NCBI RefSeq assembly: GCF_027595985.1
Contig: NC_073305.1
Coordinates: 181,479,449-181,543,448 of the forward strand
Direction of reading: 5' to 3'
DNA length: 64,000 nt
Origin: Sorex araneus
Taxonomy: Eukaryota; Chordata; Mammalia; Eulipotyphla; Soricidae
This document shows, piece by piece, positions 11,460 through 61,066 of this stretch (its first letter is position 1; every line of letters begins with the position of its first letter). The notes below the pieces were generated by a model, which made no database searches, was not told the origin of the DNA, and saw only the letters and a program-made list of their open reading frames with translations. The translations under genes and the position numbers were made by a program.

Positions 11460-12118
11460 TCTCTTGCCCCCGCACCTGGCTGTCTTCACTGGCGCCCCTC
11501 AGAGCAAGGCAGCTTGAGTTTTCCTCCACACTCTGAGCAGAGCCCCAGAAACTGAAGACCTCCAGAACCTAGCCACAGCCATGCTCAAGACCCCTCTCCA
11601 CATATTTGGATGAGCCTCATGTACGAAGGAACCGGCAGAGAAACACAGGTGTGTGGGACCCAGGACTGAGATCTCCAAGCCTGCTCAGATTGGGACTGGG
11701 CCTCCTCCACCCAGACCCCCCATTTTCCAGTAGCTAGGCAGTCACACCCACAAACTGCCCTCAGCCCCGTGTAATCCCACCAATGGCCAAGATCCAGAGA
11801 CTATAAAACAACGCTCCCAGAGGCCTAGTTCTTATAGCCTATTTCTCCCTCTCAGAGAACCTGGCAAGGTACCGAGAGCATCCTGCCCACATGGCAGAGC
11901 CTGGCAAGCTCCCTGTGGCATATTCAATATGCCAAATACAGTAACAATGATGGGTTTCATTCCCCTTACCCTGAAAGAGCCTCCAATGCAGCACTCCTGG
12001 AAAGAACAAGTAAAGATAGGCTGCTAAAATCTCAGGGCTAGGACGAATGGAGACGTTACTGGTGTTTGCTTGAGCAAATCAATGATCAATGGGATGACAG
12101 TGATATAGTGATACAGTG
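11460..12118 (+). mobile_element. RTE-derived non-autonomous element, long form
   Basis: The last ~270 bp (about 11850-12118) contain the same body as the RTE-tailed SINEs (GAGCCTGGCAAGCT, ATATGCCAAA, CAGTAACAA). A block of about 110 bp absent from the SINEs follows (about 11968-12045). The element then ends in the RTE terminus (GGACGAATGGAGACGTTACT) and a GTGATATA/GTGATACA tail. There is no tRNA-like head. About 390 bp of unassigned sequence precede the body and may be RTE 5' UTR. The left boundary is tentative, based on a loose match of AACTTAATTTTT near 11446 with AATTTAATTTTT at 12118. I read it as an internally deleted RTE (5' part joined to 3' end) and a possible ancestor of the SINE body. 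Confidence 0.6.
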
Positions 12119-12405: not shown

Positions 12406-12502
12406 TAAATCAGTAAATTGAAAATTACTTTCAACAACTAAATATCTCTTCCTTACACACATATGGATTTACATTTTATAGTATGAATAATTCTATGCCA
12501 AT

Positions 12503-13273
12503 ACATTGAAATACTTCGACTGCGAGTGTGGAAAGGTTGGACCACAGCTGAATCTCACCAAGACAATGTTCATGAAAAATGAACTAGTCCCTGACGCTCC
12601 ATTTATTCTCAATGGAACAAACATCTCCGAATGCAGCAGCTCTGTGTGCCTGGGTCGAGAACTCAACATGAGGAATGACTTGGCACCAGAACTGCGCAGG
12701 AGGAAGAGAGCAGCGTGGAATGCCTTCAAGAGTGTTGAAGAAGTAGTTAAGAGGACAAAGAACCTCCGGCTCCGGGCACATCTTTTCAACTCCACCGTTC
12801 TTCCTGCACTAACATATGCCTCAGAGACCTGGGCCCTAAGAAAACAGGACGAGAACGCTATTAGGGTATCCCAAAGAGGAATTGAAAGAGCTATGCTAGG
12901 AGTATCATGTTTCACTCAAGTGAGAGATGGAATCCGGAGTTCCAACCTCCATCGACAGCCGAGTATCAGGGTCGCTGTCTCGTTTGCTAAGTTGTCGAAA
13001 ATCAGATGGGCCAGACACGTAATTCGATATGGAGATGACCACTGGACTGGAGCTGCTACTGACTGGATTCCACGGGACGTCAAAAGACCGCGCAGCTGCC
13101 CACGTACGAGAAGGTCAGACTTCTTTGTCAAAACCCTGAACGAATGGTTTGAGGCTCTTCGTGTTCCTTGAATGAGCAGATACCACTGGGCTACACTAGC
13201 ACACGATAGGGACAAATGGAGATGTTACTGGAGCCCGCTCGAGCAAATCAAAGATCAACGGGATGACAAGTGA
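12503..13273 (+). pseudogene. RTE-clade LINE, 3' end of the endonuclease/reverse-transcriptase ORF (fits RTE1_Sar), 5'-truncated and broken
   Basis: An open frame runs from 12506 to a stop at 13169. It encodes the C-terminal part of an RTE polyprotein, downstream of the catalytic RT core. Visible blocks are GKVGPQLNLTK (residues 9-19), PDAPFILNGTNISECSSSV (29-47), RRKRAAWNAFKSVEEVVKRT (65-84), LPALTYASETWALRKQDENA (99-118) and the DWIPRDVKR region (186-194). These are hallmarks of the RTE C-terminal domain, and from memory they are closest to RTE proteins annotated in strongylid nematodes. The TGA at 13169 looks like CpG decay of CGA, because the same frame stays open for 33 more codons (including HWATLA and RDKW) to a TGA at 13271-13273. 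The endonuclease and the FxDD part of the RT are absent, so the copy is inactive. The ORF runs almost to the element's terminus; only a short GTGATA-like tail follows. L1 and SINE sequence on both sides argues against contamination. Confidence 0.88.
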
Positions 13274-13409
13274 TATAAGTGAATACGTTGAGATTTACAT
13301 AAAATGCTACAAATACACAATTTAGTAAGGTGAGGAAATTTTAAAAAATTTAATTTTTGAACAAACATTTTCAACTTTTGAAAATTTTTAAAAATTAAAA
13401 GTAAATGAG

Positions 13410-13974: not shown

Positions 13975-14220
13975 GAATATTGTCTTTGTGTTAAAAAATA
14001 TTACATTTTTTAAGTACGTTAATGTTTAAGTATCTATATTAGTAAGTAAAACACTATACATTAGTAAGTAATATTCTAAAAAAATCTCTATAGGGTAAAG
14101 AACCATTTGAAATGCTATAGAACATTCATATAAATAAGCATTAGTTTATTATTGAAAAAGTATAAAATCTCTTAGCAAGCTAGGAGTAAACAGACTTTTC
14201 TTAATCTAGTAGAGGGCAAC

Positions 14221-14454
14221 CTCATAGCACAGCGGGTAGGGCGTTTGCCTTGCACGCGGCTGACCCAGGTTTGGTTCCTCCATCCCTCTTGCAGAGCCCA
14301 GCAAGCTACCGAGAGTGTCCCGCCCACACGGCAGAGCCTGACAAGCTACCGTGGTGTATTCAATATGCCAAAAACAGTAACAACAAGTCTCACAATGGAG
14401 ACGTTACTGGTGCCTGCTCGAGCAAATTGATGAACAATGGGACAACAGTGATAC
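14221..14454 (+). mobile_element. RTE-tailed tRNA SINE, subfamily B
   Basis: The tRNA-like head begins at the A box (ATAGCACAGCGGGTAGGGCG); the B box is mutated (GGTTTGGTTCC). The CCCTCTTGCAGAGCCC linker and the body follow, then CACAATGGAGACGTTACTGG and the ACAACAGTGATAC tail. Flanking copies of AGTAGA(G/A)GG(C/T)AAC (14208-14220 and 14455-14467) form a TSD. The first few bases of the head are missing. Confidence 0.88.
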
Positions 14455-14599
14455 AGTAGAAGGTAACCATATGCACCATGAGTGAAGGCTGTATACAATG
14501 ACAAAGTGCTGATAAGTTTGCCTTGCCTTTTAAAGAAGCAACTTTAATGCTTCTTGTGGAACTGGTTTCAAGGCTATAAATTCCCCAAGCTGCTGTCCT

Positions 14600-15995: not shown

Positions 15996-16193
15996 GACGG
16001 TGTCTCTGTTGTGAAACTTGTTGTTACTGTTTTGGGCATATTGAATACACCACGGGTAGCTTGTCAGGCTCTGCCATGTGGGCGAGCTACACTCAGTAAC
16101 TTGCCGAGCTGTCCGAGAGGAGCGGAGGAATCAAACCTAGGTCGGCCATGTGCAAGGCAAACACCCTACCCAGCTATGCTATCACTGCAGTAG
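15996..16193 (-). mobile_element. RTE-tailed SINE, 3'-truncated
   Basis: On the minus strand the copy has a B-box-like region, the body (CAGAGCCTGACAAGCTACCC) and CAGTAACAACAAG, then stops near the TTTCACAACAGAGAC stretch. The terminal GACAGT repeats are absent, so the 3' end has been lost or eroded. The linker contains a few extra bases (GAGGAGCGGAGG on the plus strand). Confidence 0.75.
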
Positions 16194-20364: not shown

Positions 20365-20367
<3 letters not shown>

Positions 20368-20612
20368 GGCTGGAGCGATAGCACAGCGGTTGGACGTTCG
20401 CCTTTCACTTGGCCAACTCATGTTCGACTTCTCTGCCCCTCTCGGAGAGCCCGGCAAGCTATCAAGAGTATGGAGCCCGCACGGCAGAGCCTGGCAGGCT
20501 ACCTGTGCGTATTGGATATGCCAAAAACAGAAACAATAAGACTCTCAATGAGAGACGTTACTGGTGCTCGCTGAGCAAATTGATGAGCAACAGGATGACA
20601 GTGACAGTGATA
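20365..20612 (+). mobile_element. RTE-tailed SINE, subfamily A, inserted in a TA tract
   Basis: Complete from GTGGGCTGGAGCGATAGC to GACAGTGACAGTGATA. Subfamily A marks are GGTTGGACGTTCGCCTTTCA in the head, TCTGCCCCTCTCGG in the linker and CTCAATGAGAGACGTTACTG near the end. TA-dinucleotide sequence lies on both sides, so the TSD cannot be delimited. Confidence 0.88.
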
Positions 20613-20662
20613 TATCTGTATATATAATATATTATATATATATTATATATAATATATATATA

Positions 20663-26429: not shown

Positions 26430-26665
26430 AAGAACAATAGCACAGCGGGTAGGGCATTTGCCTTACACATGGCCGACCCTTCATCCTGCTTGGAGAGCCC
26501 AGCAAGCTACCGAGAGTATCCTGCCCACATGGCAGAGCCTGGCAAGCTACCCGTGGCGTATTCGATATGCCAAAATCAGTAACAACAAGTTTCACAATGG
26601 AGACGTTACTGGTGTCCACTCGAGCAAAACGATGAACAACAGGGTGACAATGCTACAGTGCTACA
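26430..26665 (+). mobile_element. RTE-tailed SINE, subfamily B
   Basis: The head is AATAGCACAGCGGGTAGGGC. The B box is degraded, with GACCCTTCATCC in place of the GTTCGATTCC stretch. The body and CACAATGGAGACGTTACTGG are intact. The tail is an octamer repeat (CTACAGTG, about three units). Confidence 0.85.
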
Positions 26666-35149: not shown

Positions 35150-35312
35150 CTTTTAAGCTACCAGGAGTATCTCGCCTGCATGGCAGAGCCTCACAAGCTA
35201 CCCGTGGCGTATTTGATATGCCAAAAACAGTAAAAACAAGTCTCACAATGGAGACGTTACTGGTGCCCGCTCGAGCAAATCGATGAGCAACAGGATGACA
35301 GTGACAGTGACA
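35150..35312 (+). mobile_element. RTE-tailed SINE, 5'-truncated, subfamily B
   Basis: Starts inside the body at AGCTACCAGGAGTATC and continues to CACAATGGAGACGTTACTGG and a GACAGTGACAGTGACA tail. It lacks the whole tRNA-like head. AT-rich sequence lies on the left and a perfect hairpin follows 12 bp to the right. Confidence 0.85.
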
Positions 35313-52271: not shown

Positions 52272-52455
52272 ATTTGATTCCTCCATCCCTCTTGGAGAGC
52301 CTGGCAAGCTACCGAGAGTATCAAGCCCGCGCGGCAGAGCCTGGCAAGCTACCCGTGCATATTGGATATGCCAAAAACAGTGACAATAAGTCTCTCAATG
52401 AGAGACGTTACTGGTGCCTGCCCGAACAAATCAATGAGCAACGGGATGACAGTGT
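52272..52455 (+). mobile_element. RTE-tailed SINE, 5'-truncated at the B box, subfamily A
   Basis: Begins at TTTGATTCCTCCATCC with no A box and carries the subfamily A mark CTCAATGAGAGACGTTACTG. Its GACAGTGTGATAT tail runs straight into a TA tract shared with the next copy. Confidence 0.85.
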
Positions 52456-52456
52456 G

Positions 52457-52496
<40 letters not shown>

Positions 52497-52497
52497 T
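52456..52497. repeat. TA tract between two RTE-tailed SINEs
   Basis: About 20 TA units with one TACATA interruption. Confidence 0.93.
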
Positions 52498-52695
52498 CGA
52501 TTCCTCCGTCCCTCTTGGAGAGCCTGGCAAGCTACCGAGAGTATCCTGCCTGCATGGCAGAGCCTGGCAAGCTACCTGTGGCGTATTCGATATGCCAAAA
52601 GCAGTAACAACAAGCCTCACAATGGAGATGTCACTGGTGCCCACTCGAGCAAATCAATGAGCAACAGGTTGACAGTGATACAGTGATACAGCAGC
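52498..52695 (+). mobile_element. RTE-tailed SINE, 5'-truncated at the B box, subfamily B
   Basis: Begins at the same internal position as the copy just upstream (TTCGATTCCTCCGTCC) but carries the subfamily B mark CACAATGGAGATGTCACTGG. The two are therefore separate subfamily members rather than a simple recent duplication. The tail is GTGATACAGTGATACAG, running into CAG repeats. Confidence 0.85.
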
Positions 52696-53370: not shown

Positions 53371-53821
53371 CACATTACCTGAATTAGATCATGGAACATC
53401 TGGGACTTGGAGAGTATCTGTTTCCAGGAGGGTATTTTGAAAACAAAATAGGCATTTGTTACAGCAGGAATTGTCCAGGATCTGTCAGGAGACTATCATC
53501 GAACATTCTTGGCCTAACTCAACTTTTCCTTGTTTTTTCACCTGTGTATTGTTTTTAAAGCAGCCGTCTGAACCATAGAAATGGATGAGTTTGGGCAAAT
53601 AGTTTCTATCTCTTTGATAACTACCATCAATGTTACACTGAAAGTTTTTCTGTCATGTGTTTCTCGAAGAAATAGTCACAGCTGGTCAAATCTCACTGGT
53701 TACCTTTAATACCTGAGGTCTTAGCAGTAAATTTGTCTTCTTCACCCCAGCCCCCATACAATCTGCAATTTTTCTGACATATCAGATCTCAAGCATTTTG
53801 TCTAAGTACCTAAAAGATGGC
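53371..53821. other. Unique DNA
   Basis: Nothing recognised. Confidence 0.5.
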
Positions 53822-53935
53822 TGTCACTATCACTGTCATCCCGTTGTTCATCAATTGCTCAAGTGGGCACAAGTAGCATCTTCATTCGTCCCTGTCGCAT
53901 GGTAGTGTAGCCCAATTGCGTCTGCTCACTCCAGA
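53822..53935 (-). pseudogene. RTE LINE 3'-terminal fragment
   Basis: The minus strand carries the RTE C-terminal coding end itself, not the SINE body. An NWATLP..DRDE-like block is followed by a stop, then the CCACTTGAGCAATTGATGAA terminus and the GGGATGACAGTGATAGTGAC tail. It parallels positions about 13184-13280 of the larger RTE fragment and is a second, independent RTE copy, heavily 5'-truncated. Confidence 0.75.
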
Positions 53936-54055
53936 AACACAGTAACAGTAAAAGATGGCTATGACTTAAAAAAATATATATGTATATGACATTGCGTAAA
54001 CTATGTTCTTTGACTTGTAAGTTTTTCTTTGTTTGGGATTGGTTGGGTTTGGGTT

Positions 54056-56337: not shown

Positions 56338-56593
56338 GCACTGGAGCACTGTCATCCCGTTGTTCATCAATTTGCTCGAGCGGGCACCAACTAGTAATGT
56401 CTCCATTGTGAGACTTGTTGTTACTGTTTTTGGCATATCGAATACACCACGGGGGGCTTGCCAGGCTCTGCCAGGCGGGTGGGTGGGATACTCTCAGTAG
56501 CTTGCCGGGTTCTCCGAGAGGGACGGAGGAATAGAACCCGGGTCAGCCTCATGTAAGACAAACGCCCTACCCGCTGTGCTATCACTCCAGCCA
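56338..56593 (-). mobile_element. Full-length RTE-tailed SINE, subfamily B
   Basis: Complete from the GGCTGGAGTGATAGCACAGC head to a CAGTGCTCCAGTGCTAC octamer tail. It has a perfect 10-bp TSD, TTTTGTTGTA, at 56328-56337 and 56594-56603. There is a small insertion (AGTT) just before GGTGCCCGCTCGAGC. Confidence 0.92.
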
Positions 56594-59299: not shown

Positions 59300-59563
59300 G
59301 GGCTGGAGCAATAGCACAGTGCTTGGGCGTTCACCTTACAGTGATTGGGGATTCACCTTTCATGCGGCCGACCCGAGTTCGATTCCTCTGCCCCTCTCGG
59401 AGACCCCAGCAAGCCACTGAGAGTATCCTGCCCGAACGCCAGAGTCTGGCAAGCTACCTGTGGGGTATTGGATATGCCAAAAACAGTAACAATAAGTCTC
59501 ACAATGAGAGACGTTACTGGTGCCCGCTTGAACAAATCGATTAGCAACAGGATGACAGTGACA
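59300..59563 (+). mobile_element. Full-length RTE-tailed SINE, subfamily A, with a head duplication
   Basis: Perfect 10-bp TSD, GTGGACTCAT, at 59290-59299 and 59564-59573. Within the head a ~22-bp segment is present twice (CTTGGGCGTTCACCTT and ATTGGGGATTCACCTTTCAT, about 59322-59361). The linker is CCTCTGCCCCTCTCGG and the tail GACAGTGACA. Confidence 0.92.
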
Positions 59564-59714
59564 GTGGACTCATATTTTGAGGGAAATTTCTTATTTTCTC
59601 CCCAAAGACTATCTTCATTCATAGAAACGTAGAACTAGGTGTTGGAAGGATGCAACTCTGATGTTTTTCTTTTCTTTTTCATTTTCTTCTTTTTAAAAAA
59701 TTAATTAATTAATT

Positions 59715-60800: not shown

Positions 60801-60813
60801 AATAATAATAGTA

Positions 60814-61066
60814 GCACTGTAGCACTGTCATCCCGTTGTTCATCGATTTGCTTGAGCGGGCACCAGTAATGTCTCCATTGTGAGACTCGTTGTTACTGTT
60901 TTTGACATATTGAATACTCAACACCATGGGTAGCTTGCCAGGCTCTGCCGTGCGGGCAGGGTACTCTCGGTAGCTTGCCGAGCTTCCCGAGAGGGACAGA
61001 GGAATCAAACCCAGGTCAGCCGCATGCAAGGCAAATGCCCTACCCCCTGTGCTATTGCTCCATTCC
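60814..61066 (-). mobile_element. Full-length RTE-tailed SINE, subfamily B, inside the tail of a SOR SINE
   Basis: TSD AATAATAATAGTA at 60801-60813 and 61067-61079. The target was the A-rich tail of the SOR SINE ending near 60800, so this insertion is the younger one. The tail is an ACAGTGCT octamer repeat. Confidence 0.92.

Follow-up and report, generated by a model that had tools for sequence, protein, structure and literature searches.

Which machinery copies a SINE whose 3′ end reads like the end of a LINE protein, and where did the SINE obtain that end? The question was raised by a tRNA-headed element at 14.2 kb in a stretch of 64,000 nucleotides of the Sorex araneus genome (hereafter, the window). 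The initial annotation had proposed that this element and eight others like it finish with the last codons of an RTE element lying in the same stretch. We call the family SINE-R and describe here its layout, its head, body and tail, and the ways in which it could have been mobilised.

RESULTS

Copies of SINE-R in the window

A BLAST search using the 14.2 kb copy as query detected 10 SINE-R copies in the window (Table 1). The nine SINEs listed in the initial annotation were all recovered; that list had missed the copy at 16.1 kb, a longer relative whose end lies at ~12.1 kb (SINE-B) and a second RTE insertion at 53.82–53.95 kb. The RTE tail is present in 9 of the 10 copies, the exception being the one at 16.1 kb. 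The RTE junction is identical across the nine tailed copies, each of which occupies a distinct locus and has flanking sequence of its own. SINE-R has a tRNA-like head with both promoter boxes, and its copies are dispersed, four of the ten with well-placed target-site duplications (TSDs), as in a tRNA-derived SINE.

Table 1. Positions of the SINE-R copies, the RTE insertions and related features in the window
Feature	Position	Strand	Remarks
SINE-R, 14.2 kb copy, short form	14222..14454	+	TSD 14208-14221 / 14455-14468, 12/14 nt
tRNA-derived head of 14.2 kb copy	14222..14278	+	5′ end shortened
Central body of 14.2 kb copy	14279..14393	+	Similarity to the RTE copies at shuffle level
RTE-derived tail of 14.2 kb copy	14394..14447	+	Last ~18 RTE codons; followed by terminal repeat
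SINE-R	20367..20620	+	ATGAGAGACG variant
SINE-R	26437..26664	+	
SINE-R	35156..35312	+	5′-truncated
SINE-R	52274..52461	+	5′-truncated; ATGAGAGACG variant; within TA tract
SINE-R	52501..52694	+	5′-truncated; adjoins the 52274..52461 copy
SINE-R	56340..56590	-	TSD ~10 nt, TACAACAAAA
SINE-R	59300..59566	+	ATGAGAGACG variant; head with 21-nt insertion; exact TSD GTGGACTCAT
SINE-R	60811..61064	-	TSD up to 13 nt, TACTATTATTATT
SINE-R without RTE tail	16000..16190	-	Most diverged copy; no TSD found
SINE-B, longer relative	11840..12118 (approximate limits)	+	Head missing; no TSD found
RTE13.2	12510..13281	+	5′-truncated; stop 13271-13273
Possible TSD of RTE13.2	12500-12509 / 13282-13291		9/10 nt; equalled by 7% of random upstream pieces
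C-terminal coding block of RTE13.2 common to the SINEs	13215..13268	+	Matches SINE consensus at 49/54 nt
RTE53.8	53823..53948	-	Strongly 5′-truncated; same 3′ end
TSD of RTE53.8	53949-53960 / 53811-53822		Exact, 12 nt; equalled by 0/300 random upstream pieces

For the TSDs, each copy was tested against 300 random upstream pieces. The match was equalled by ≤2% of the random pieces for 7 of the 10 SINE-R copies. Among these matches, those at the 20.4 and 52.3 kb copies are mere TA runs, and the one at the 35.2 kb copy lies some 20 nt away from the element. Well-placed TSDs adjoin both ends of four of the 10 copies (14.2, 56.3, 59.3 and 60.8 kb; 0–2% of random pieces). By the same random-piece test, TSDs were absent at the 26.4, 52.5 and 16.1 kb copies and at SINE-B.

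We observed the following in individual copies. The TA-rich tract at 52274–52694 holds two 5′-truncated copies in succession, and the copy at 20367–20620 lies in another TA tract, as if such tracts were favoured targets. In the head of the 59.3 kb copy (59300–59380), the 21-nt insertion resembles a partial duplication of the head. The copies at 20.4, 52.3 and 59.3 kb have ATGAGAGACG and TTGGATATGCC in common. The 6-nt ACAGTG repeats occur in the 20.4 and 59.3 kb copies and also in the 35.2 kb copy, which is without the ATGAGAGACG/TTGGATATGCC marker. SINE-R would seem to comprise at least two subfamilies that differ in their terminal repeats.

The SINE-R tail corresponds to the C-terminal codons of an RTE element

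The SINE-R consensus and RTE13.2 could be aligned without gaps over 13215–13268, with 49 of 54 positions identical. The score of this alignment was 39, against 13 for the best of 300 dinucleotide shuffles; for RTE53.8 it was 28 against a best shuffle of 12. BLAST within the window matched the 14.2 kb SINE to the RTE tail with an E-value of 9e-11. The shared block is in frame in RTE13.2, forms the protein end ..DKWRCYWSPLEQIKDQRDDK and finishes just before the stop, as the initial annotation had it. Read in the RTE frame, the consensus tail of the SINEs is QWRRYWCPLEQIDEQRDD, and the C-terminus of the Nippostrongylus protein is EWRRYWRPLEQIDDQRDD; the two agree at 15 of 18 residues (E 7e-10, in a search against two short sequences). 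Both the nucleotide identity and this conserved protein end bear out the proposal that the SINE tail is RTE C-terminal coding sequence; a terminal repeat follows it.

The sequence motifs on which that proposal was built are found at the sites given for them, in the form of a consensus from which individual copies depart. GGAGACGTTACTGG occurs unchanged in three of the nine listed copies (14.2, 26.4 and 35.2 kb) and has ≤2 mismatches in all nine. CCCGCTCGAGCAAAT occurs unchanged in two (35.2 and 56.3 kb), has ≤3 mismatches in eight and, in the 20.4 kb copy, is interrupted by the loss of 1 nt. The motif placed at 13219–13268 in the RTE is indeed there, except that it starts at 13218, within the longer shared block. 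Neither kind of element finishes with poly(A). Repeats of ACAGTG type terminate the nine tailed SINE-R copies, and repeats of AGTGAT type terminate the RTE copies.

The RTE sample in the window consists of two copies, both 5′-truncated. The frame of RTE13.2 is open to its stop but for one TGA. The stop codon lies inside the terminal repeat; the reverse transcriptase ORF of the RTE runs almost to this repeat, as is characteristic of the RTE clade. The reverse transcriptase domain PF00078 is present in many of the listed homologs of the window RTE; it was not found in Pfam with the window piece alone, presumably because this piece lies C-terminal of the domain. For the RTE protein (P0001), there were no confirmed relatives in viral_contigs (4 pattern stretches) or in genome_contigs (10 pattern stretches).

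A stem-loop in the tail was also considered and rejected as a supported structure. In both the SINE and the RTE the 3′ arm of the stem is the terminal repeat, and z is about −1 in both. The structure was derived from the consensus, and column shuffles were as good or better, 469 of 500 having as many paired cells; covariation in the stem did not go beyond column shuffles. When the arms were slid, pairing fell from 88% to no more than 48%.

The C-terminus is conserved among nematode relatives of the RTE

The protein search with the window RTE yielded 696 relatives, 120 of which were listed. Among those listed, 111 are named as nematodes, two as Sorex fumeus and seven as neither. The nematode genera are Nippostrongylus, Haemonchus, Necator, Ancylostoma, Angiostrongylus, Parelaphostrongylus and Heligmosomoides; Nippostrongylus is placed in Strongyloidea, and we take the other genera to be strongylids. 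With the two Sorex rows excluded, 60 of the 118 listed relatives carry the full C-terminal motif (four of these 60 are named neither nematode nor Sorex), and the protein end comes a single residue after QRxx in 51 of the 60. The remaining 58 are without the full motif, and many of the 40 inspected were shortened, frameshifted or diverged. Because the nematode relatives carry the same C-terminus, we judge from these alignments that the shared segment is native coding sequence of the RTE and that the transfer went from RTE to SINE.

The two Sorex fumeus proteins (P0027 and P0048) terminate at ..EQIDD, five codons short of the position at which the RTE usually ends. Their endonuclease part passes straight into the C-terminal part. 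These proteins may represent a deleted RTE subfamily, or an artefact of intron-containing gene models.

The SINE-R head is a Sor head

The SINE-R and Sor heads are identical at 65 of 66 consensus nucleotides. The Sor set comprised 44 window copies of at least 100 bp that we assign to Sor. The polymerase III A and B boxes of the SINE-R consensus head read TAGCACAGCGG and GGTTCGATTCC. ARAGORN called tRNA-Ala at four sites in the window, all of them Sor copies and none in SINE-R. The two families diverge after the B box, where the inspected Sor copies continue into a different body and an A-rich tail. As SINE-R has the head of Sor, yet Sor tails here are A-rich, a Sor-type promoter has apparently been re-tailed with the RTE end. 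In PMC8466645 Sor is described as a T- SINE of shrews; SINE-R is like it in its head and unlike it in body and tail.

The body and the longer relative SINE-B

The consensus body of SINE-R is 116 nt long. Compared as DNA with both RTE copies, it gave nothing beyond shuffles, and with RTE proteins nothing convincing was obtained, the best match outside the tail having an E-value of 0.007 in another frame. A 22-nt word of the body had no match in viral_contigs. SINE-B consists of the SINE body, 88 extra nt and an RTE tail, and its RTE part starts 2–3 codons further upstream (..DEWRRYW) than the SINE-R tail. The score of the 88 extra nt, read in the tail frame, was at shuffle level (184 of 1000 shuffles as high). 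Judging from this one copy of SINE-B, the short form, SINE-R, may be its deletion product.

Ages of the copies and a hint of a subfamily link

Divergence was measured from a consensus built from the same ten SINE-R copies. The K2P values of the nine tailed copies are 0.071–0.135 at all sites and 0.027–0.100 without CpG; those of the tail-less 16.1 kb copy are 0.216 and 0.154, respectively. Pooled over all ten copies, the non-CpG value is 0.069. The Sor copies diverge by 0.014–0.326 without CpG (median 0.13, 44 copies), and the oldest of them are older than every SINE-R copy in the window. RTE13.2 differs at 22 of 150 residues when the comparison is confined to sites at which both S. fumeus copies have the nematode majority residue. 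The S. fumeus rows align badly over their first ~50 residues. This rough amino-acid estimate corresponds to an age of ~0.07 per nt under neutrality, with CpG sites counted. By comparison with the all-site range of SINE-R, the SINE copies appear to match RTE13.2 in age or somewhat to exceed it. With few copies and one dated RTE copy the ages of the two elements are not separable, and a single RTE copy cannot date the arrival of the RTE. A SINE family older than the RTE, the second condition that the initial annotation had named as a refutation, is compatible with these ages, as is the reverse order.

The codon before CAA has a purine as its third base in the nine tailed SINE-R copies and in RTE53.8, and T in SINE-B and RTE13.2. 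The residue encoded there could be read in 63 of the 118 listed non-Sorex proteins and is Asp in 60 of them, with one Asn, one Val and one Glu. This Glu belongs to a Haemonchus protein (P0037), so the Asp/Glu change can arise more than once. The single site, in few copies, gives a hint that SINE-R is linked with the subfamily of RTE53.8 and SINE-B with that of RTE13.2.

DISCUSSION

Mobilisation of SINE-R

We conclude, with a probability of about 0.83, that SINE-R is composed of a Sor head, a body and a C-terminal coding tail of RTE1_Sar type, and that it was copied by the RTE reverse transcriptase. RNA polymerase III would transcribe SINE-R from the Sor-type head, the reverse transcriptase of the RTE would take the SINE tail like its own RNA end, and the SINE would be copied into the nicked target by target-primed reverse transcription. 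The RTE seen in the window would be the active partner, and SINE-R would depend on it. Since the RTE stop lies inside the terminal repeat, recognition beyond the repeat, if needed, must rely on the C-terminal codons.

Mobilisation by L1 is assumed for Sor. The same could hold for SINE-R, with the RTE tail as a passenger, given that its head is that of Sor and that the inspected Sor copies are A-rich at their 3′ ends; however, the nine tailed copies end in ACAGTG-type repeats without poly(A) and have the same RTE junction, which makes mobilisation by L1 improbable. Independent capture of a third repeat by both RTE and SINE, which the initial annotation had named as a refutation of a SINE tail derived from the RTE, would explain the SINE/RTE similarity and draws on that similarity only. 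We consider it very unlikely, because the nematode RTE proteins carry the segment as their conserved C-terminus, up to their very end. Template switching between SINE RNA and RTE RNA at single insertions would produce such junctions with no heritable SINE family, and PMC4476161 describes chimeras of U6 and an RTE-like LINE in Anolis. It is hardly credible here, as one junction and the subfamily markers recur in nine copies at separate loci.

A variant of the main explanation differs on the source of the body. It derives body and tail together from an internally deleted RTE (5′ UTR plus 3′ end) that acquired the Sor head. The bipartite tails of the AviRTE SINEs, made of 5′ and 3′ UTR (PMC4844689), and the non-autonomous elements that begin with RTE or BovB 5′ ends (PMC3747384) are consistent with this variant, and so is the element at 11.8–12.1 kb with its longer body and longer RTE tail. 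On the other hand, the body is unlike the two 5′-truncated RTE copies, its RTE protein match is weak and in another frame, and the extra nucleotides of SINE-B score at shuffle level. We give this variant a nearly even chance.

For the history of the composite element itself, the following course of events is possible, and we propose it tentatively, at rather less than even odds. A nematode-related RTE would have entered the shrew lineage, the resident A-tailed Sor would then have been re-tailed with its C-terminal codons, and within this stretch the SINE and RTE subfamilies would have changed together. In the RTE, the shared stretch would be at once a protein end and a signal for the element's own reverse transcriptase.

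Relation to known SINE/LINE pairs

The SINE-R/RTE pair is a fresh case of a type of partnership already known from birds and ruminants. According to PMC4844689, AviRTE is shared horizontally with parasitic nematodes, its 3′ UTR measures ~40 bp, and the tails of new SINEs in birds come from its 5′ and 3′ UTRs. SINE-R is like these SINEs (ManaSINE1, GymnSINE and others) in joining a promoter head to the 3′ end of an RTE that is shared with nematodes. It is unlike them in its tail, which consists of C-terminal codons and a terminal repeat and not of a 5′ UTR fragment and the ~40-bp 3′ UTR, and in its setting, a shrew-type genome and an RTE1_Sar-type element. The accessible part of PMC3747384 tabulates RTE/SINE pairs for ruminants, Afrotheria, horse, springhare and marsupials; a shrew entry is not among the pairs listed there. 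As in BovB with Bov-tA and Bov-A2 (same source), the SINE tail is common to an RTE-clade LINE, whereas the RTE lineage, the head and the terminal repeat are different.

The description of the SINE-R tail as coding sequence and not 3′ UTR seems right, but in this respect BovB is probably no different. A presumed BovB C-terminus served as query; 8000 proteins were scored and 120 listed, none of them with a ruminant name. Among these 120, 65 end exactly at ..LSD, and others are longer, some of them running into WTELN. The ..LSD end apparently falls inside the tail of Bov-A2, a ruminant SINE tail that would translate to this same end. This is a strong lead that the BovB layout is the same as that found here, with the SINE tail inside the coding end of the LINE. 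Two matches to the BovB query (P0151 and P0177, 95–96%) come from contigs assigned to Klebsiella pneumoniae (878 bases) and Finegoldia magna (1250 bases), an assignment that suggests contamination.

Horizontal transfer of RTE1_Sar between nematodes and the common shrew has already been published (PMC6542046). Among the relatives listed for the RTE in the window, nematode proteins prevail and the two from Sorex fumeus are included, which is what RTE1_Sar would lead one to expect. Words beginning with 'SINE' are absent from the main text of that paper. In searches of open-licence papers we found no SINE partner of RTE1_Sar and no RTE-tailed shrew SINE; either may be catalogued in Repbase, Dfam or SINEBase.

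What lifts SINE-R above the routine is that the LINE which seems to have given a resident SINE head its new tail is one for which other authors infer horizontal acquisition. One genome holds the same head in two combinations, joined to an A-rich tail in Sor and to an RTE tail in SINE-R, and so offers a natural experiment on partner switching. Because the bases of the SINE tail also encode protein in the LINE, a comparison of SINE with LINE copies could tell apart the constraints that act on them through protein and through RNA. If the proposed partnership is true, SINE-R would be a mammalian counterpart of the AviRTE system of birds, in which a foreign LINE gives a resident SINE a second copying machine.
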